33,304 nucleotides of DNA from Oscillospiraceae bacterium Zagget6 (lineage in GTDB: Bacteria; Bacillota; Clostridia; Oscillospirales; Oscillospiraceae), in assembly GCA_001941075.1 (NCBI GenBank), contig MSHH01000079.1, positions 1-33,304 of the forward strand. The letters run 5' to 3'. Shown here piece after piece: positions 10,885-33,049 of the stretch. The position numbers were made by a program, and so were the translations under genes. How positions within the stretch are numbered: position 1 is the first letter of the stretch; every line of letters starts with the position of its first letter. The notes beneath the pieces were generated by a model. It had not been told where the DNA came from. It made no database searches and worked only from the letters and a program-made list of their open reading frames with translations.

Positions 10885-11305
10885 AAAAAAGGACATCCTC
10901 TGCCGTCCCTCGAAGGACGGGAGCGAATGTCCCGCGGTACCACCTTGCGTTTGCCCCCGCCTCGCGGTGGGAGCCTTAGTGAGTAAAAAAGCCTGTCGGC
11001 TTTTTAGCTTTTAGCCGTTAGCTATTAGCTGTTAGTGCCTGGCTTTTGGCTGACAGCTCATCAAATGGGCTGATATAAAGGAAAACCAATAAAGCTCTTT
11101 ACCCTCGCGCTGTAACGGGCGCACCCGGCGCGGCTTCCGGGCAATCTGCCCCTGTGCCGCGTGGCTCGGAAGTGGGTTCGGTGTCCCGTTGGAGGGCCTC
11201 GCACCGTCCGGCCCCTCTCTTTGCCGCTGGAAAACGCCTACTGTTCTTCGTCACAGCCTGTCGCATATTGATTTGTATTATATACGATGTCCAAAGAACT
11301 GTCAA
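10885..11305 (-). promoter_or_regulatory. T-box leader and promoter of proS
   Basis: The promoter is TTGACA (11300-11305), 17 bases, TATAAT (11277-11282). The leader has the Stem I signature (GAAGAACAGTAGG, AGAGAG bulge region), a specifier segment GAACCCACTTCCGAGCC with CCC (Pro) at 11174-11176, and the conserved T-box AAGGTGGTACCGCGG at 10932-10946. A terminator follows (10891-10932, nested stems, U-run at 10885-10890). Uncharged tRNA-Pro should stabilise the antiterminator and raise proS expression. Between Stem I and the antiterminator sit a heptad array and an extra hairpin AAAAAGCC-N4-GGCTTTTT (10986-11005) that itself resembles a terminator. Confidence 0.93.
11004..11059 (-). repeat. 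Heptad array inside the proS T-box leader
   Basis: Eight imperfect 7-bp units on the plus strand (TTAGCTT, TTAGCCG, TTAGCTA, TTAGCTG, TTAGTGC, CTGGCTT, TTGGCTG, ACAGCTC). It lies between the Stem I/II region and the antiterminator. It is the only array here not at a gene's 3' end. Confidence 0.75.
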
Positions 11306-25644: not shown

Positions 25645-26808
25645 TTAATCCGAACTCTTTTCGTAGTTGCCCAAAATGTGGAAACTCAGCGTCTCGTCGA
25701 TGAGCTGATGAATGACCGCGTCCATCCCCTCGTTGTGGAGGTTTCCGGCGAAGTCCGCGAAGAAGTTGTACTCCCAGCTTCTCCCCGGAATGGGGCGGGA
25801 CTCCAGCTTCAGCAGATTCAGGCCGTTGGCGGCGAACACCGACAAAATCCGGTGCAGACTGCCCTCCGTGTGGGGGACGGTGAAGATGACGCTGATTTTG
25901 TCCGCCTTCTTGCTGATGCGGGGCTTTTCTGCCACCACCACAAAGCGGGTGTAGTTGTTGGAGTTGTAGTTGATCTTCTCCGCCAAGATGTCCAGTCCGT
26001 AGAGCTTGGCCGCCCGGCGGCTGGCGATGGCGGCACGAGAGGGGTCGTTCAGCTTGGCCACCATTTTGGCGGAGGCGGCGGTGTTGGCCTCCACGTTCTG
26101 GTTCCACTGGGGGAAGGTGTTCAAAAACTCCCGGCACTGGGAGAAGCCCTGTTCGTGGGAATACACATCGGTGATGCTGCCCAGGCTGGAACCGGGGACC
26201 CCCATCAGGCAGTGTTCCACCCTCACAATGGTCTCGCCCACGATGGAGCAGCCATACTTGCCCAGCAGGTCATACACGTCATTGATGGAGCCGGTGGAGC
26301 TGTTCTCAATGGGCAGCACACCGTAGCCGCCCAGCCCCTCCCGGATAGCCACAAACACGCCCTCGAAGCTCCGGGCCGGGGTGCGGTCACAGTCCTCGCC
26401 AAAGAGCTGGATGGTGGCCTCTTCGCCGTAGGCCCCCGGCTGGCCCTGGTAGATGATGCGGTCCGACTCCGGGAACCAGTTGCCGCTGTTCATGGCCTCC
26501 TGGTACTCGCTGTAAGCCCGCTCCTTGGCGGGGCTCCAGGCGTTGATGAGCTTGGTCTGGATCATGCGGCTCTGGGCCATGATTTGCTCAAACAGGGCGA
26601 TAACATAGGGTTTCATCTCCGGGTCGCTGACCAGGTCGGTCTTGCCCCGCAGCACCTCGGTCTCCCGCCCGGAGTCCAGGATGGGCATTTGGGTGCGCAG
26701 CTTGTACATCCCCACCTGGCGGCAGCAGTCCATCCGCTCCTCGTAAAGGGCCACGATTTGACGGTCAATTTCGTCGATTTTGCCCCGCAGTTCGTCTAAT
26801 TCAGTCAT
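25645..26808 (-). CDS. pheA: Bifunctional chorismate mutase/prephenate dehydratase (P-protein)
   Basis: The 387-residue protein has a chorismate mutase domain (about 1-90, opening LDELRGKIDEIDRQIVALYEERM), a prephenate dehydratase domain (about 115-295, with YQGQPGAYGEEA, PIENSSTGSI and the NYTRFVVV motif) and a C-terminal ACT domain (about 305-380) carrying ESRP, part of the Phe-binding site. It converts chorismate to prephenate and then phenylpyruvate, the committed path to phenylalanine, and is usually inhibited by Phe. It is the last gene of the aro operon, so the operon's output is directed to Phe. The gap to aroC is about 30 bases. Confidence 0.96.
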   Translation of the reverse strand: MTELDELRGKIDEIDRQIVALYEERMDCCRQVGMYKLRTQMPILDSGRETEVLRGKTDLVSDPEMKPYVIALFEQIMAQSRMIQTKLINAWSPAKERAYSEYQEAMNSGNWFPESDRIIYQGQPGAYGEEATIQLFGEDCDRTPARSFEGVFVAIREGLGGYGVLPIENSSTGSINDVYDLLGKYGCSIVGETIVRVEHCLMGVPGSSLGSITDVYSHEQGFSQCREFLNTFPQWNQNVEANTAASAKMVAKLNDPSRAAIASRRAAKLYGLDILAEKINYNSNNYTRFVVVAEKPRISKKADKISVIFTVPHTEGSLHRILSVFAANGLNLLKLESRPIPGRSWEYNFFADFAGNLHNEGMDAVIHQLIDETLSFHILGNYEKSSD

Positions 26809-26840: not shown

Positions 26841-27902
26841 TCAGATGCCCAGCAGCTCGCAGGCGGCCAGCGCCGCCGCCGCCTCGATGACCGGCACCGC
26901 CCGGTGGACCACGCAGGGGTCGTGCCGCCCCTCGATGCGGAGCTTGGCGTTTTGCATGGTGTCCAGGTTCACCGTGTCCTGCTCCTTGGCGATGGAGGGG
27001 GTGGGCCGGACGGCCACCGTGAAGGTGACGGGCATTCCGTTGGTGATGCCGCCGTTGACGCCGCCGTTGTAGTTGGTGCGGGTGCGCACGTCGCCGCCCC
27101 GCATATAGAGGGGGTCGTTCATCTGGCTGCCCCGCAGCCCGGCGCAGCCGTAGCCCACGCCGAAGGCCACGCCCTTCACCGCCGGGACTGCGAACAGCTG
27201 CTGGGCGAAGATGCCCTCCACGTTTTCGCCGTAGTCCGGCGCGCCCAGTCCGGCGGGCAGGCCCAGCACGGCGCACTCGATGACGCCGCCCACCGAGTCG
27301 CAGTCGTTCTTGGCGGCGAGAATGGCCTCCTGCATTTTCTGCCCCTGCTCGTCCACCAGAACGGGAAAGTCCTTGTGGGCCACGGTGTAAAACAGGTTGC
27401 CGGAGAGGGGATATGCCTCACTGTCGAAGGCGGCGTCCTCGATGCCCGCCACCTGCTGGATGTGTGCGCCCACCTTGACGCCCTCCTGGGCCAAAATCTG
27501 CTTGGCAATCGCCCCGGCGAACACCAGGGGGGCCGTCAGCCGGGCGGAGAAGTGTCCGCCGCCACGGTAGTCGTTGTAGCCCTGATAGCGCATAAAGCCG
27601 GAGTAGTCGGCGTGACCGGGCCGGGCCAGATCCTTGGTCTTGGCGTAGTCCTTGCTGCGGGTGTCGGTGTTGCGGATGATGGCGCAGAGGGGGGTGCCGG
27701 TGGTCATGCCCTCGAACACGCCGGAAAGAATCTCCGGCACGTCCGCCTCCTTCCGGGCGGAGGAGAGGGGGCTTTTGCCGGGGGCGCGGCGGCTCATCTC
27801 AAAGGCAATTTCGTCCATATCCAGCTCGATGCCCGACGGCACACCGGTCAGGGACACGCCCACGGCGAGGCCGTGGGACTCGCCAAAAATCGTGTGTTTC
27901 AT
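26841..27902 (-). CDS. aroC: Chorismate synthase
   Basis: The 353-residue flavoenzyme eliminates phosphate from EPSP to give chorismate and needs reduced FMN. Signatures: FGESHGLAVGVSLTGVPSG at the N-terminus, MTTGTPLCAIIRNTDTRSKDY, RPGHADYSG and GGHFSARLTAPLVFAGAIAKQ. Its length is normal. AAGGAG overlaps the aroA stop (TTAAGGAG), so the two genes are tightly coupled with a 12-base gap. Confidence 0.97.
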   Translation of the reverse strand: MKHTIFGESHGLAVGVSLTGVPSGIELDMDEIAFEMSRRAPGKSPLSSARKEADVPEILSGVFEGMTTGTPLCAIIRNTDTRSKDYAKTKDLARPGHADYSGFMRYQGYNDYRGGGHFSARLTAPLVFAGAIAKQILAQEGVKVGAHIQQVAGIEDAAFDSEAYPLSGNLFYTVAHKDFPVLVDEQGQKMQEAILAAKNDCDSVGGVIECAVLGLPAGLGAPDYGENVEGIFAQQLFAVPAVKGVAFGVGYGCAGLRGSQMNDPLYMRGGDVRTRTNYNGGVNGGITNGMPVTFTVAVRPTPSIAKEQDTVNLDTMQNAKLRIEGRHDPCVVHRAVPVIEAAAALAACELLGI

Positions 27903-27914
27903 GTCGCTCTCTCC

Positions 27915-29141
27915 TTAATCCCAGATGCTGAACTGTCCGCCCAGCCGGTAGTAATGTTCCCAAAAGCCGGGGTGGGACTTGGCGACGCTGCCCGCGTCCT
28001 GCAAAACCACCCGGTCAGTGGCGGCACTGGCCACCATCGCCAGCATCATGGCAATGCGGTGGTCGTTGTGGCTGTTCACCACGCCGCCGTGGAGCTGTTT
28101 CACCCCGGTGATGATGAGGGAGTCGGGAGTCTGCTCCACTTTGGCCCCCAGCTTGTTCAGCTCGGTGGTGACGGTATCCAGCCGATCACTCTCCTTGATG
28201 CGCAGCCGGGCGGCGTTGACGATCTTTGTCACCTGTCCGTCCCGGAGGGCCGCCCGTCCCGCCAGGGCGGGGACCAAATCGGGGCATTGCCGCACGTCGA
28301 TGACCACCTCGCCGGGCTGGTCCAGCAGCGCCTCCTGCTCCACGATGATTTTGTCCCCCTGACAGGTCATGGGGTTCATGTCGCAGACCTGAATGTCATT
28401 GCCCAGACCGTTGGCGATGATATAAAAGGCGGCGTTGGAGTAATCCGCGTCGATCATCACCGGCCCCTTGGCGGCCCGGTAGTGCTGGTTGCCGGGGATG
28501 TGCCAACCGGTCTCCGTCCGCTCCACCGTGACGCCGAACAGCTGCTGGGCCACGATGGTGGAGTCGATATACCCGGCGGATTCCAGCTCGGTGGTAAGGA
28601 CGATGTCGGAATCGGCCTCCAGCAGGGGCAGGGCGAAGAGCAGCCCCGTGATGAACTGGGAGGACACGTTGCCCGCAATGCGGAAGGTGCCGGGCCGCAG
28701 CTCCCCTTCTACCTCGATTTTGCCGTTGCGCCGCTCAAAGCGGATGCCCCGCTCCTGAAACAGCTCCCGGTAGGGCTTTTGGGGCCGCTCCATCAGCCGC
28801 CCCCGGCCGCTGAACACGCCGCCTCCCGCCACCACCAGGGCGATGGGGATGAGGAAGCGCAGGGTGGAGCCGGACTCGCAACAGTCCAGCTCCGGCAGGG
28901 GCCGCATTTTGCCCCGGCGGGCGTTGGCCCCGGTGATGATACCGCCGTGCTCCGCAGCCTCCGCGCCCAGGGCGCGCATACAGTTCAGGGTGGCGTGGAT
29001 GTCCTGGGAGAGCTGTAGGTTCAAAATCAGGCTCTCCCCCTCGGCCAGCGCCGCGCAGATGATGGCGCGGTGGGCCTGGCTCTTAGAGGGGGGCGGCGTC
29101 ACCGTCCCCTGTAGCTTGTGGGGATAAATCGCTAAATCCAT
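27915..29141 (-). CDS. aroA: 3-phosphoshikimate 1-carboxyvinyltransferase (EPSP synthase)
   Basis: The 408-residue enzyme joins phosphoenolpyruvate to shikimate-3-phosphate. Signatures: PPSKSQAHRAIICAALAEG near the N-terminus (Lys, Ser and Arg for substrate binding), then CCESGSTLRFLIPIAL in place of the usual LGNAGTALR. That second segment is the divergent form typical of class II-like enzymes, which tend to be less glyphosate-sensitive; this is inference. ARLRIKESDRLDTVTTELNKLGA and NSHNDHRIAMMLA are also intact. I place the start at 29141 (MDLAIYPHK) with AGGA about 11 bases upstream; the longer frame adds non-conserved residues. Confidence 0.95.
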   Translation of the reverse strand: MDLAIYPHKLQGTVTPPPSKSQAHRAIICAALAEGESLILNLQLSQDIHATLNCMRALGAEAAEHGGIITGANARRGKMRPLPELDCCESGSTLRFLIPIALVVAGGGVFSGRGRLMERPQKPYRELFQERGIRFERRNGKIEVEGELRPGTFRIAGNVSSQFITGLLFALPLLEADSDIVLTTELESAGYIDSTIVAQQLFGVTVERTETGWHIPGNQHYRAAKGPVMIDADYSNAAFYIIANGLGNDIQVCDMNPMTCQGDKIIVEQEALLDQPGEVVIDVRQCPDLVPALAGRAALRDGQVTKIVNAARLRIKESDRLDTVTTELNKLGAKVEQTPDSLIITGVKQLHGGVVNSHNDHRIAMMLAMVASAATDRVVLQDAGSVAKSHPGFWEHYYRLGGQFSIWD

Positions 29142-29237: not shown

Positions 29238-30308
29238 TTACAGTGCTTTAATTTGTTCCATCAATTCCGATTTTTTCAGCCGGACGGCCTCCGCCTTGCC
29301 CAGCTCGGGCAGCAGGATGACGCTGATGTCGCCGCCCTGTCCCTTTTTGTCCAGGCCCACGGCCTCCTCGTAGTCGGCCTGAGTGCAGGGGATGGCATCC
29401 GGCAGACCGAACTTTTTCACGATGGACTGAATTTTGCCGGGGACCTCCGCCGGGGTGACACCCATGTGAACGCCAATTTCCGCCGCCCGACACATCCCGG
29501 CAGCCACGGCCTGACCGTGGGTGTAGGTCTCGTAGTGGTACGCCTTTTCGTAGGCGTGACCCAGGGTGTGGCCGAAGTTCAAAATCATGCGCAGGCCCCG
29601 GTCATGCTCGTCCTGGAGGACCACCTCGGCTTTGATGGCGCAGCAGATGTGAATGACCTGCTCAATGGCCGCCATGACCCGCTCCCGGCTGCCGCACTGG
29701 TCCAGCATGTCGAAAAACTCCGCGTCCCAGATGCAGCCGTACTTGATGACCTCGGCCATGCCGTCGGCAAAGACCGGGTCGGGCAGGGTCTCCAGCACGT
29801 CGGGGTCGATGACCACCATCCGGGGCTGCCAGAAAGCCCCGGCCAGGTTCTTTCCGGCCTGGAGGTCAACCGCCACCTTGCCGCCCACGGAGGAGTCCAC
29901 CTGGGCCAAAAGGGTGGTGGGGATTTGGACGTAATCAATGCCCCGGAGGATGGTGGCGGCGGCAAAGCCCGCCAGGTCGCCTACCACGCCGCCGCCCAGG
30001 GCCACCACCGCGTCGGTGCGGGTCAGTCCGAAGGCCATCAGTTCCTCCCAGAGCCAGGCCAGCATCTCCGGGTTCTTGGAGGACTCTCCCGCCGGGATGG
30101 TGAACACCTTCACCTGGAACCGGGCGGCCTCCAGGCTGTCCACCACCCGCTGGGCGTACAGGGGACCGACGGTGCTGTCCGTCACCAAGGCAATGCGGGT
30201 GGCCCGCATCAGCACCACCCGGCACCGCTTGCCCACCGCGTCCAGCAGGCCCCGTTCAATCAAAATCTCATATTCTCTGCCGGGCAGAGCCACATTCAGT
30301 CGGTTCAT
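29238..30308 (-). CDS. aroB: 3-dehydroquinate synthase
   Basis: The 356-residue NAD- and metal-dependent enzyme converts DAHP to 3-dehydroquinate. Motifs: ALGGGVVGDLAGFAAATILRG (NAD binding), IPTTLLAQVDSSVGGKVAVDL, FADGMAEVIKYG and LNFGHTLGHAYE (metal-binding His). Its length is typical. The start at 30308 (MNRLNVALPG) is preceded by GGAAGGGAAG. It follows aroF in the same orientation with a gap of about 107 bases. A roughly 95-base spacer with short hairpins separates it from aroA. Confidence 0.96.
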   Translation of the reverse strand: MNRLNVALPGREYEILIERGLLDAVGKRCRVVLMRATRIALVTDSTVGPLYAQRVVDSLEAARFQVKVFTIPAGESSKNPEMLAWLWEELMAFGLTRTDAVVALGGGVVGDLAGFAAATILRGIDYVQIPTTLLAQVDSSVGGKVAVDLQAGKNLAGAFWQPRMVVIDPDVLETLPDPVFADGMAEVIKYGCIWDAEFFDMLDQCGSRERVMAAIEQVIHICCAIKAEVVLQDEHDRGLRMILNFGHTLGHAYEKAYHYETYTHGQAVAAGMCRAAEIGVHMGVTPAEVPGKIQSIVKKFGLPDAIPCTQADYEEAVGLDKKGQGGDISVILLPELGKAEAVRLKKSELMEQIKAL

Positions 30309-30415
30309 GACGCTTCCCTTCCGGGGCAGCAATGCACAGGCAAAACCAAACGATTTCCCGCAGCTTTCGCTTTCCCCTGCCATACTTTATCGGTTTAAAG
30401 CAAATTTGTCTGCTC

Positions 30416-31435
30416 TTATATTACTACTGTTTTGCCCATCAGGTCAACAATTTTCTGCACCTTGCCCATGAGCTGGCCGAACTGCATGGGGGTCAGGGAC
30501 TGCTGGCCGTCGCAGAGGGCGTGTTTGGGGTCATTGTGGACCTCGATGATGAGGCCGTCGGCCCCCGCCGCCACCGCCGCCATGGTCAGCGGCTCCACCA
30601 GCCAGCTGTAGCCGCCGGAGTGAGAGGGGTCCACCACCACGGGCAGGTGGCTCATCCGCTTGACAGCGGGGATGGCGGAGACATCCAAGGTGTTGCGAGT
30701 GTACTTCTCGAAGGTGCGGATGCCCCGCTCACAGAGGATGACGTTTTCGTTGCCCTCGCTCATGATGTACTCGGCGGACATGATCCACTCCTCGTAAGAG
30801 CTGGAGAGGCCCCGCTTCAGCAGCACCGGCTTGGACATCTTGCCCACTTCCTTCAGCAGGTCGAAGTTCTGCATATTCCGCGCCCCGATCTGCACCAGAT
30901 CCACCTTTTCCTCGAACAGTTCGCAGTATTTGGGGCTCATAATTTCGGTGACGATGGGCATTCCCGTTTCCGCCTTGGCCTCCAGCAGCAGGTTCAGGCC
31001 GGGGGTGCCCATGCCCTGAAAGGAATAGGGGCTGGTGCGGGGCTTGAAGGCTCCGCCCCGGAGGATGGCGGCCCCCGCCTGCTGGACCTCGTCGGCGATG
31101 GTGATGATTTGGTCCCGCGATTCTACAGAACAAGGTCCCGCCATAACCGCGAACTTGCCGCCGCCGATCTCCACGCCGTTGACGTTGACCACCGTGTCCG
31201 CCGGGTGGAACTTCCGGTTGGCCTTTTTGAAGGGTTCCGACACCCGCATGACCCGCTCTACGTGGTCGTTGAGCAGAATTTTGTCCTCGTCCAACTGGGT
31301 GGTGTCCCCTACCAGGCCCAAAATGGAACAGTCCACGCCGTTGGTAATGCCCACCCGCAGGTTTTGGGCCTCGAACCGGGCCGCCAGCTTGCGGATCTCC
31401 TTCTGACTGGTGCCGGGTTTCATGATGACTACCAT
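30416..31435 (-). CDS. aroF: DAHP synthase, type I-beta with N-terminal regulatory domain
   Basis: The 339-residue first enzyme of the shikimate pathway joins PEP and erythrose-4-phosphate. An N-terminal ferredoxin-like domain (about 1-70, opening MVVIMKPGTSQ) is followed by the catalytic barrel: MAGPCSVES, RGGAFKPRTSPYSFQG, QIGARNMQNFDLL, LLKRGLSS and VVDPSHSGG. In relatives the N-terminal domain mediates feedback inhibition. The start at 31435 has AAAGGAG seven bases upstream. It is the first gene of aroF-aroB-aroA-aroC-pheA and lies behind an attenuator with an aromatic-rich leader peptide. Confidence 0.96.
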   Translation of the reverse strand: MVVIMKPGTSQKEIRKLAARFEAQNLRVGITNGVDCSILGLVGDTTQLDEDKILLNDHVERVMRVSEPFKKANRKFHPADTVVNVNGVEIGGGKFAVMAGPCSVESRDQIITIADEVQQAGAAILRGGAFKPRTSPYSFQGMGTPGLNLLLEAKAETGMPIVTEIMSPKYCELFEEKVDLVQIGARNMQNFDLLKEVGKMSKPVLLKRGLSSSYEEWIMSAEYIMSEGNENVILCERGIRTFEKYTRNTLDVSAIPAVKRMSHLPVVVDPSHSGGYSWLVEPLTMAAVAAGADGLIIEVHNDPKHALCDGQQSLTPMQFGQLMGKVQKIVDLMGKTVVI

Positions 31436-31463
31436 AAAAATACTCCTTTCAATTTTAGCGCGC

Positions 31464-31495
31464 AAAAAGGCCCATTGCCTTGCGACAATGAGCCT
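31464..31495 (-). terminator. Attenuator terminator before aroF
   Basis: The 10-bp stem 31468-31477/31486-31495 (gene strand AGGCTCATTG/CAATGGGCCT, one G-U) with an 8-base loop is followed by UUUUU. It sits between the leader peptide ORF and the aroF ribosome-binding site. Confidence 0.8.
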
Positions 31496-31562
31496 AAGAT
31501 CACAGTTGATAGAATCCTGCCCTCTGACAAAGGCGGCTTTAGACGCTCACAGTCCCGCTATC

Positions 31563-31643
31563 TCATTTTACCCATGCAAAGTAGCCGAAACCGAAAAATC
31601 GATTCCAGCTGCTGGTAAAAGAGAAAGTGGAAGAATACAGCAT
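31563..31643 (-). CDS. Aromatic-rich leader peptide of the aroF operon
   Basis: The 26-codon ORF starts ATG at 31643 and stops TGA at 31563-31565. Ten codons are aromatic: Tyr at 3 and 21, Trp at 13 and 24, Phe at 7, 9, 16, 17, 19 and 22. The densest run is RFFGFGYFAW (15-24). A GAGG lies about 11 bases before the ATG, weak but usable. The composition and placement, between promoter and terminator of a Phe/Tyr/Trp operon, fit a leader peptide on which ribosomes stall when charged aromatic tRNAs are scarce. The peptide is probably not functional as a protein. Confidence 0.8.
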   Translation of the reverse strand: MLYSSTFSFTSSWNRFFGFGYFAWVK

Positions 31644-31768
31644 CGTTCAATACGCCTCAATCATCAGGTGGAGCTTGCGTCTCATCGAAAAAATCAATAA
31701 GACAGTATGGTTATTATATCATCTTTCCGGGAAAACGCAAGGGGGAATTTTACGGGAAGGGTAAAAAT

Positions 31769-32398
31769 TCAGAAAAGCTCTGTCAATTCCGCAAAACTCT
31801 CCACCTTCGCCACATATCCCTCCGCCTGGCCCAGCCCGTAGGCGGCAAACACGAAGTCGATGCCCGCCTTTGCGCAGGCGTTGGCGTCGCCCTGGGTGTC
31901 CCCCACGTAGACAGGATTTTGCAGGTCATACCGCTCCATCAGGGTGCGAATGGTCTCGTCCTTCTCCGTCAGGGTGTCCCCCCAGGAGAGCCACCCCTCA
32001 AAGCAGTCTCGCAGACCGTAGCTGTCCAGCAGAATCTCGATATACCCCCGCTGGCAGTTGGAGACGATGAACAGCCGATGGCGTTTTGCCAGTTCTCCCA
32101 ACATCTCCGCCACGCCGGGGTAGAGGACGCCGGGGTCCTTCGCCAGCCCGATGTTCTCCTGAGCGTAGCACCGCTCCCCCAGCTCATGGCGCTGGGCGGA
32201 GGACAGCTCCGGCACCAGGTCCAGCATGATGTCGTCCATGGTCTTGCCGAACTCTTTTTCCAGCGTTTTGCCGTCCCAGTGGTAGGGTTTGCCGGTGAAC
32301 TTCTGCGCCTCAGCAGACCAGATATGAGCCACCTTATCGCAGGAATACCAGAGGGTGCCGTCCACGTCGAAGATAATGCCGTCATATTGGTACATCAT
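31769..32398 (-). CDS. HAD family hydrolase (copy B)
   Basis: The 209-residue HAD phosphatase has motif I DVDGTLW (DxD nucleophile), motif II VSN (FIVSNC), and motifs III/IV VYVGDTQGDANACAKAG. The alpha-helical cap after motif I places it with the phosphoglycolate-phosphatase-like subfamily. The substrate is unknown. It is clearly related to the gene immediately upstream (shared SNCxxGYIE, NPVYVGDxQxDAxACAKAG and AAYGxG segments), indicating tandem duplication. It overlaps the upstream gene by 17 bases. GGAG lies five bases before the ATG; the second Met at 32395 is an alternative. Confidence 0.9.
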   Translation of the reverse strand: MMYQYDGIIFDVDGTLWYSCDKVAHIWSAEAQKFTGKPYHWDGKTLEKEFGKTMDDIMLDLVPELSSAQRHELGERCYAQENIGLAKDPGVLYPGVAEMLGELAKRHRLFIVSNCQRGYIEILLDSYGLRDCFEGWLSWGDTLTEKDETIRTLMERYDLQNPVYVGDTQGDANACAKAGIDFVFAAYGLGQAEGYVAKVESFAELTELF

Positions 32399-33035
32399 AC
32401 CATCTCCATAACAGATCCAGGGTCAGCAGGTCGGGGAACCGGTGGATGGTTGCGGTGGGGCGCTGAATCGTCCCGAAGCCGTAGGCGGCATAGATGATGT
32501 CCACCCCCGCTTTGGCGCAGGCGTCCGCGTCCGCCTGGATGTCTCCCACATAGACGGGGTTTTTCAGCCTGCACTGTTTCATCAGCGCCCGCAGGGTCAC
32601 ATCCTTGGGGGCGTTGGTATCCGCGTAGCACAGCCAGTCGCAAAAGTAGGGTCTCAGGCCGGTGCCCTGGAGCATGGCCTCGATGTACCCCTTGCCGCAG
32701 TTGGAGACGATGAACAGCGGGTATCGCGCCATCAGTTTCTCCAGCGTCTCCTCCACGCCGGGGTAGAGGGTGCCGGGGCGCTCCAGCAGCATTTCGTTTT
32801 CCCGGCGCAGGCAGTAATCCCCCAGCACCGCCTTCCGCTCCGGCGGTACGCCGGGGAAGGCGAAGTCGATTAAATCGTCCAAGGGCTTGCCAAAAAGCTG
32901 CCCGAAGGTCTCGCTCTCCAGCGTGCCGGGAACGCCGGTCAGCTCCTCAATAGCCACGTTCCACCCGGCGGTGATACTCTCTCTGGCGTCCCAGAGGGTG
33001 CCGTCGATGTCAAACACGATTGCGTCGTAGCTCAT
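32382..33035 (-). CDS. HAD family hydrolase (copy A)
   Basis: The 217-residue paralogue of the next gene has motif I DIDGTLWDA, FIVSNCGKGYIE (motif II) and NPVYVGDIQADADACAKAG (motifs III and IV). Both copies retain all catalytic residues, so both may be active with different substrates. I place the start at MSYDAIVF (33035), with GGGAG five bases upstream, rather than 33092, which would run through a strong hairpin. No substrate is suggested by the neighbours. Confidence 0.9.
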   Translation of the reverse strand: MSYDAIVFDIDGTLWDARESITAGWNVAIEELTGVPGTLESETFGQLFGKPLDDLIDFAFPGVPPERKAVLGDYCLRRENEMLLERPGTLYPGVEETLEKLMARYPLFIVSNCGKGYIEAMLQGTGLRPYFCDWLCYADTNAPKDVTLRALMKQCRLKNPVYVGDIQADADACAKAGVDIIYAAYGFGTIQRPTATIHRFPDLLTLDLLWRWYDVPI

Positions 33036-33049
33036 ACGTTCTCCCAAAA

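Follow-up and report, generated by a model that had tools for sequence, protein, structure and literature searches.

Leader-peptide attenuation predicted for the aroF operon of an Oscillospiraceae bacterium, with comparable leaders in other Clostridia

The aroF operon and the elements of its leader

The window (the whole stretch of DNA analysed, 33,304 nucleotides from Oscillospiraceae bacterium Zagget6) carries on its minus strand a short leader followed by five genes in the order aroF-aroB-aroA-aroC-pheA. All were assigned with Pfam: aroF, encoding a DAHP synthase (DAHP_synth_1 with a ferredoxin-like domain; 30416..31435); aroB, 3-dehydroquinate synthase (29238..30311); aroA, EPSP synthase (27915..29141, assigned on 27915-29138, with the likely ATG at 29141); aroC, chorismate synthase (26841..27902); and pheA, chorismate mutase-prephenate dehydratase (25645..26808). 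Just upstream of the leader lie two adjacent genes for HAD-family hydrolases, also on the minus strand (31769-32398 and 32382-33038), which overlap by 17 bases and look like a tandem duplication.

All the leader elements are on the minus strand. The putative promoter (31713..31740), read by eye in the window sequence, combines a perfect extended -10 (TGATATAAT, 31721-31713) with a weak -35 (TTGCGT, 31740-31735), and transcription is expected to start at about 31706. The original prediction spoke here of a consensus promoter, a description that suits the -10 and fails for the poor -35; none was listed in a consensus scan. This mechanical promoter and terminator pattern scan of the window listed neither the leader promoter nor the leader terminator (the latter, we guess, perhaps because the scan extends the stem into the U-run), and the case was consequently rested on the anatomy of the leader and on its relatives. 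A ribosome-binding site (GAGG, 31655..31658) precedes by 11 nt the ATG of the leader peptide ORF (MLYSSTFSFTSSWNRFFGFGYFAWVK, stop codon TGA; 31563..31643), which has 26 codons, ten of them aromatic (6 Phe, 2 Tyr, 2 Trp), exactly as predicted. It appears to be a translatable short ORF placed between the promoter and the first gene.

The pairing elements are distributed along and behind this ORF. Region 1 (31613..31645), the 5′ strand of the 1:2 stem or anti-antiterminator, extends from the leader start into the ORF; an internal hairpin, of 12 bp in the window, occupies the codons W-x-R-F-x-G-x-G (31583..31610); and region 2 (31541..31573), the 3′ strand of the 1:2 stem, includes the antiterminator strand CGGGACTGTGAGCG (31544..31557), which lies 3′ of the stop codon, at a distance of 6 to 19 nt, and has its pairing partners among the bases of GGCTCATTGTCGCA within the terminator. 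The intrinsic terminator (31464..31495) consists of a 12-bp stem-loop (31495-31468) and a U-run reaching 31464, and the aroF ribosome-binding site, AAAGGAG as read from the sequence, follows at 31443..31449. Thus the predicted terminator with its U-run is present, with a stem of 12 bp and not 10. The antiterminator had been placed at the leader stop: AAUGAG (31567-31562, presumably the bases meant) can pair with CUCAUU of the terminator arm, but the stronger partner, conserved in relatives, is the strand at 31557-31544, downstream of the stop. The 265-nt leader RNA of the window folds with a z-score of -5.4 compared to its shuffles.

Conservation of the leader and of its pairings

The relatives comprised 107 loci (80 named loci from an AroF scan and 27 places from 32 genomes of the same genus), 103 of which contain the aroF start. 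A leader profile matched 80 of these 103 aroF upstreams (12 of the 80 being seeds of the profile), one of them at E 0.14 and the others below 0.001; the reverse-strand translations of the same upstreams gave zero matches. Two of the 23 upstreams without a match (L055, L023) have little upstream DNA. There were 70 distinct leaders, and 53 after removal of those at least 88% alike; the sequences are related, so that the counts and set tests given here overstate independence. Of the 53, 51 have a -10-like hexamer at a distance of 20-140 nt before the leader start (loose pattern, without a null), and most rows of alignment A1, which holds 46 leaders, have a GAGG-like site before the leader start. 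The ORF is enriched in codons for the end products of the operon: Phe codons are present in 53/53 leaders, Tyr in 46/53, Trp in 42/53 and all three in 35/53, the aromatic fraction being 0.26 in the leader frame vs 0.13 in the other two frames. The contrary pattern raised in the original prediction, relatives keeping the terminator but losing the ORF or its aromatic codons, was not seen among the relatives found by the profile.

Across the family the profile matched 34 of 200 genomes, with one match per matched genome, 31 clear (E 2e-6 or better) and 3 weak (E 0.006 to 0.01). All 31 clear matches fell among the 47 genomes with a close aroF (best aroF at least 71% identical), compared to none in the 153 others, and the leader lay at most 420 nt before aroF in each of 30 fetched loci. 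The remaining 16 genomes have a close aroF and no clear match; ten were fetched, nine were readable, and five of the nine upstreams (L216, L217, L219, L223, L225) carry a terminator with CTCATTGA. The translations of these five (e.g. FFGCGRFIGGG, FGFCGRFNDGGFFAWEN) resemble diverged versions of the leader. In a set of 19 upstreams from the same family, belonging to a second aroF isozyme (see below) or profile-negative, only three reach 8 aromatic codons in 15, compared to one of the reverse strands, and 8/19 were significant against their own shuffles.

A permissive script (run without a null) detected a terminator-like hairpin in 69 of the 70 distinct leaders, and in the seventieth, L025, one is seen by eye; a putative intrinsic terminator stands before the first gene. 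In A1, 89.6% of the cells of the terminator and the internal hairpin are paired vs 80.6% when shuffled (0/500), versions slid along the alignment reach at most 50%, and 14 of the 25 pairs changed on both sides, a test that relatedness inflates. The internal hairpin was compared to synonymous recodings of the same peptides: the mean energy is -14.0 vs -9.9 kcal/mol, with 0/300 recoded sets as low; in the window the values are -16.2 and -8.2 kcal/mol, and 20 of the 53 leaders singly beat recoding at the 5% level.

Two longer-range pairings compete in the predicted switch. In the 1:2 stem, the upstream half of the ORF pairs with the ORF end and the bases that follow it, with a mean of -26.9 vs -20.3 kcal/mol over the 53 leaders (0/200 null sets as low) and with -28.5 vs -17.0 kcal/mol for shuffled sequences in the window; six of the 53 (L018, L020, L021, L026, L034, L050) pair no better than shuffled. 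For the set of 53, folding supports a 1:2 pairing that would permit the terminator when no ribosome stalls. In the 2:3 antiterminator, the bases just 3′ of the ORF pair with the terminator 5′ arm and loop, with a mean of -16.1 vs -12.3 kcal/mol (standard deviation of the set mean 0.30; 0/200 null sets), and the pairing midpoint falls in the same stretch in 91% vs 48%. The loop was admitted to this test after its complementarity had been seen in the alignment. Most leaders are not significant singly (19/53 at p 0.05 with arm and loop), a duplex test with the arm only was weak (9/69 leaders at p 0.05), and the window gives -16.1 vs -12.3 kcal/mol, p 0.09 alone. The 2:3 pairing would exclude the other pairings, a reading to which the leaders point as a set and only weakly one by one.

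The RNAalifold consensus fold of the whole alignment returned the hairpin and the terminator only, and neither 1:2 nor 2:3, perhaps because the strands of these two pairings drift in the alignment. A crude ribosome-position model moved in the expected direction, as a trend and not as a clean switch. With the ribosome stalled up to 12 codons on either side of W, region 2 bound a fraction of 0.54 to 0.72 of the terminator arm (the lowest value falling just before W), compared to 0.40 for a ribosome at the stop codon and 0.49 for a leader free of ribosomes. The corresponding values for the window were 0.47 to 0.84 stalled, 0.55 at the stop and 0.59 without a ribosome.

Leader codons in two aroF operons and in other families

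Many genomes of the family encode another DAHP synthase that is about 60% alike; in 25 of the 26 loci fetched a tyrA-like gene comes next, and Pfam found prephenate dehydrogenase in all six tyrA-like genes scanned. Where 4.9 kb of downstream sequence was available (52 loci), the first type of aroF is followed by aroB-aroA-aroC-pheA in 47. The leader of the aroF-tyrA operon is mostly rich in Tyr (GYGYYRYY), with Tyr exceeding Phe in 20/26 loci (3 ties, 3 reverse); five of the 26 had been picked after the leader was already seen, and one batch of 20 among the loci gives 14, with 3 ties and 3 reverse. In genomes with both isozymes, the Phe:Tyr codon count is 103:28 in 22 pheA-type leaders vs 36:102 in 19 tyrA-type leaders (Fisher 2e-18, computed on 19 of the 26 tyrA-type leaders, selected by pattern, and treating related genomes as independent). 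The codons of the leader thus follow the end product of the operon, as expected if tRNA charging is sensed, and their match with the end product is suggested for the one family where two operons were comparable. Leaders have 2.4 Tyr codons in genomes with one aroF vs 1.3 in genomes with two (p 0.005, n=8 and 22), a weak comparison, as only four genera supply the eight (one of them four, another two) and some of the genomes are incomplete.

These results bear on the predicted sensing of all three aromatic aminoacyl-tRNAs through one peptide. They show it at the level of codon content only, with all three residues encoded in the 35 leaders mentioned; genomes with two isozymes have a separate Tyr-rich leader before aroF-tyrA.

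Two features of the aroF-tyrA leaders (L227, L229, L230-L232, L243, L244, L246-L248, L251, L252, L258) were observed in passing. A YYRYY-like motif is common in the Tyr-rich ones, and 13 of the 26 leaders end in Cys-Pro-stop (TGC with either CCA or CCG); for this terminal proline next to the stop codon we have no explanation.

The AroF protein was found in 203 of 291 genomes of the class. A non-random class-level sample of 68 upstreams combined the 28 closest matches with 40 chosen by hand, lower in the same list, so as to cover more families; L153 had too little upstream DNA and was set aside, and the resulting 67 still include near-identical ones. An aromatic uORF, defined by 8 or more aromatic codons within 15 consecutive codons of an ORF, is present in 43/67 of these other-family upstreams vs 1/67 of their reverse strands, and in 41/67 the aromatic score is matched by no more than 1 of 100 shuffles. 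The 43 uORFs span 20 families, and their peptides vary widely between families (e.g. FFYYYFSLAFYFWCF, KSFFFYYAYYFKRPY, AVEYYFFFYFGYYFY). The original prediction knew of no described example of its exact design; the design is at any rate not peculiar to this operon. After exclusion of L161 and L168, where a hairpin was found before the uORF end, 41 of the 43 leaders entered the 2:3 test, and their pairing averaged -13.8 kcal/mol vs -8.7 for shuffled sequences (0/200 sets) and vs -8.5 when partners were swapped between leaders, the leader's own partner beating the mean swap in 38/41. The latter result indicates that the antiterminator and the terminator arm co-change across many lineages, some being closely related. 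Similar attenuators probably precede aroF in many other families of Clostridia.

Proposed mechanism, rival explanations and known systems

We consider it highly probable, from the sequence comparisons, that the aroF operon is controlled by ribosome-mediated transcription attenuation, the central claim of the original prediction, which is well supported by the profile, the 1:2 and 2:3 pairings and the covariation. RNA polymerase would start at about 31706, and a ribosome would translate the 26-codon leader. When charged Phe-tRNA is scarce (probably also Tyr- or Trp-tRNA), the ribosome would stall on the aromatic codons, in region 1 or the hairpin, and keep region 1 from region 2; region 2 (31557-31544) would then pair with the terminator 5′ arm and loop, and transcription would proceed into aroF-aroB-aroA-aroC-pheA. 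When charged tRNAs are plentiful, the ribosome would reach the stop codon and cover part of region 2, and the terminator would form. Comparison supports the ORF, its aromatic codons, the codon specificity, the terminator, the hairpin and the alternative pairings, and from these we infer the stalling, the termination and the identity of the sensed aminoacyl-tRNAs.

The rival that survives best, itself improbable, is a nascent-peptide arrest of the TnaC type, in which the peptide in the exit tunnel would bind a free aromatic amino acid and halt the ribosome, the sensor being the peptide sequence and not tRNA charging. Such an arrest would fit the conservation of the Oscillospiraceae leader beyond its aromatic residues (W-x-R-F-x-G-x-G-[YF]-F...K, with one Gly in 70/70 and the Arg in 63/69), and likewise the Cys-Pro-stop ending of half the Tyr-type leaders; however, codons are fixed besides residues, the Arg codon being CGA in 62 of 63 leaders, while the aroF genes use CGA for 23 of their 800 arginines. 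Fixed codons such as this one would be accounted for by the internal hairpin, a covarying structure that the conserved segment forms and that beats synonymous recoding as a set. The peptides of other families, in addition, are quite different and nevertheless often aromatic-rich, and the free amino acid would need to lower expression, which is the reverse of TnaC.

That a T-box or another tRNA- or metabolite-binding RNA controls the operon, the ORF being incidental, is very unlikely. T-boxes do occur in the same genome (nine matches, four above the cut-off), one of them before a trpE-like gene, and some other aroF genes have one: Rfam found a T-box in one of 40 class-level stretches scanned (L199), and another precedes aroF in L070. 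At the aroF leader of the window, however, a T-box was rejected, there being no match to RF00230; none of the 4227 Rfam models reached its gathering score in the window, and at E up to 1 the segment 31380-31780 gave SNORA24 alone, below the cut-off and taken as chance. That the ORF is conserved, in frame and in aromatic codons alike, also stands against its being incidental. Leaders L001, L013, L030, L048, L067, L073, L080 and L081 had no Rfam match, RF00230 included, NCBIfam gave zero matches for the leaders scanned, and two matches at chance level were all that Pfam returned for 33 leaders (other-family and aroF-tyrA leaders were outside the Pfam and NCBIfam scans, and L139-L166 and L207-L226 outside the Rfam scan); as the scanned leaders match neither Rfam nor NCBIfam, they go unannotated.

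Two T-box matches of the genome deserve mention in themselves. One, in the window (10910-11263, minus strand), scores 85.1 bits, short of the gathering score of 93 in Rfam, and so did not appear in the Rfam scan of the window; it immediately precedes gene 10896-9394, a putative prolyl-tRNA synthetase by its translation read by eye. The other, of 85 bits and likewise under the gathering score, lies on contig C22 of the genome (20591-20826, minus strand; L238), directly upstream of the trpE-like gene (Anth_synt_I_N). One and the same cell thus seems to use a T-box at a trpE-like gene and a leader peptide for aroF.

The notion that the ORF encodes a small protein with a function of its own, that the terminator after it is an ordinary one and that aroF is reached by unregulated readthrough would suit a peptide conserved within the family and is equally remote, given the single match per genome in 34 genomes, just before aroF in the 30 fetched loci, the conserved and co-changing alternative partner of the terminator arm, and a peptide sequence that turns over between families while its aromatic richness stays.

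With ribosome-mediated attenuation as the preferred reading, we give about even credence to a broader proposal: an old, class-wide leader-peptide attenuation of DAHP synthase in Clostridia, with a codon mix tuned to isozyme content. Where there is a single aroF, one peptide would combine the charging signals of Phe, Tyr and Trp; two isozymes would carry a Phe-rich leader on aroF-aroBAC-pheA and a Tyr-rich one on aroF-tyrA, leaving Trp to the trpE T-box (seen only in the genome of the window). If true, classic leader-peptide attenuation would control entry into the shikimate pathway in many anaerobes of gut and soil. The matched Phe- and Tyr-rich leaders on the two isozyme operons are a codon swap made by nature, with which the tRNA-charging model can be tested directly.

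Leader-peptide attenuation is a known kind of control, of which the Clostridia aroF leaders are a variant without an account in the literature searched: the search, with most subscription journals outside its reach, returned no recognised description of an aroF leader peptide in Clostridia. In the pheL and trpL attenuators of Escherichia coli, leader codons act with alternative 1:2, 2:3 and 3:4 pairings; the mechanism is alike, whereas the phylum, the peptide and the RNA differ, and each of those leaders serves one amino acid. The T-box (RF00230) binds tRNA directly, without a leader ORF, and likewise senses tRNA charging before amino-acid genes, but none was found at the aroF of the window. 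Aromatic regulation in low-GC Gram-positives was reportedly treated by Panina in 2003, and the source study of the aroR-aroF attenuator of Corynebacterium glutamicum is said to be that of Neshat in 2014.

A 2010 survey, in its accessible part, presents leader-peptide attenuation as hardly known outside Proteobacteria and Actinobacteria (PMC2965389). His-leader attenuators replace T-boxes in some Firmicutes, according to the accessible parts of two papers (PMC2965389, PMC9413887); these are likewise ordinary leader-peptide attenuators, but they precede histidine operons or hisS and hisZ, and occur in few lineages (17 genomes in PMC9413887). The uORFC-13-1 motif before Acholeplasma aroF combines a uORF containing one or more Phe codons with a terminator and is predicted to act by attenuation (PMC8632094). 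It differs from the present leaders, as compared by description, in having 24 representatives from Acholeplasma and environmental sequences only and at least one Phe codon, and the accessible text describes no isozyme pattern (PMC8632094). The E. coli pheA (pheL) and trp (trpL) attenuators are named in the accessible part of PMC11802643, together with aroR-aroF of C. glutamicum, where stalling of the ribosome on a Phe-Tyr-Phe leader peptide is said to raise transcription. The latter is like the leader described here in placing aromatic codons before an operon with a DAHP synthase gene; it differs, by that description, in belonging to an actinobacterium, in answering to limitation of Phe and not of Tyr, and in that no Trp codons are named.
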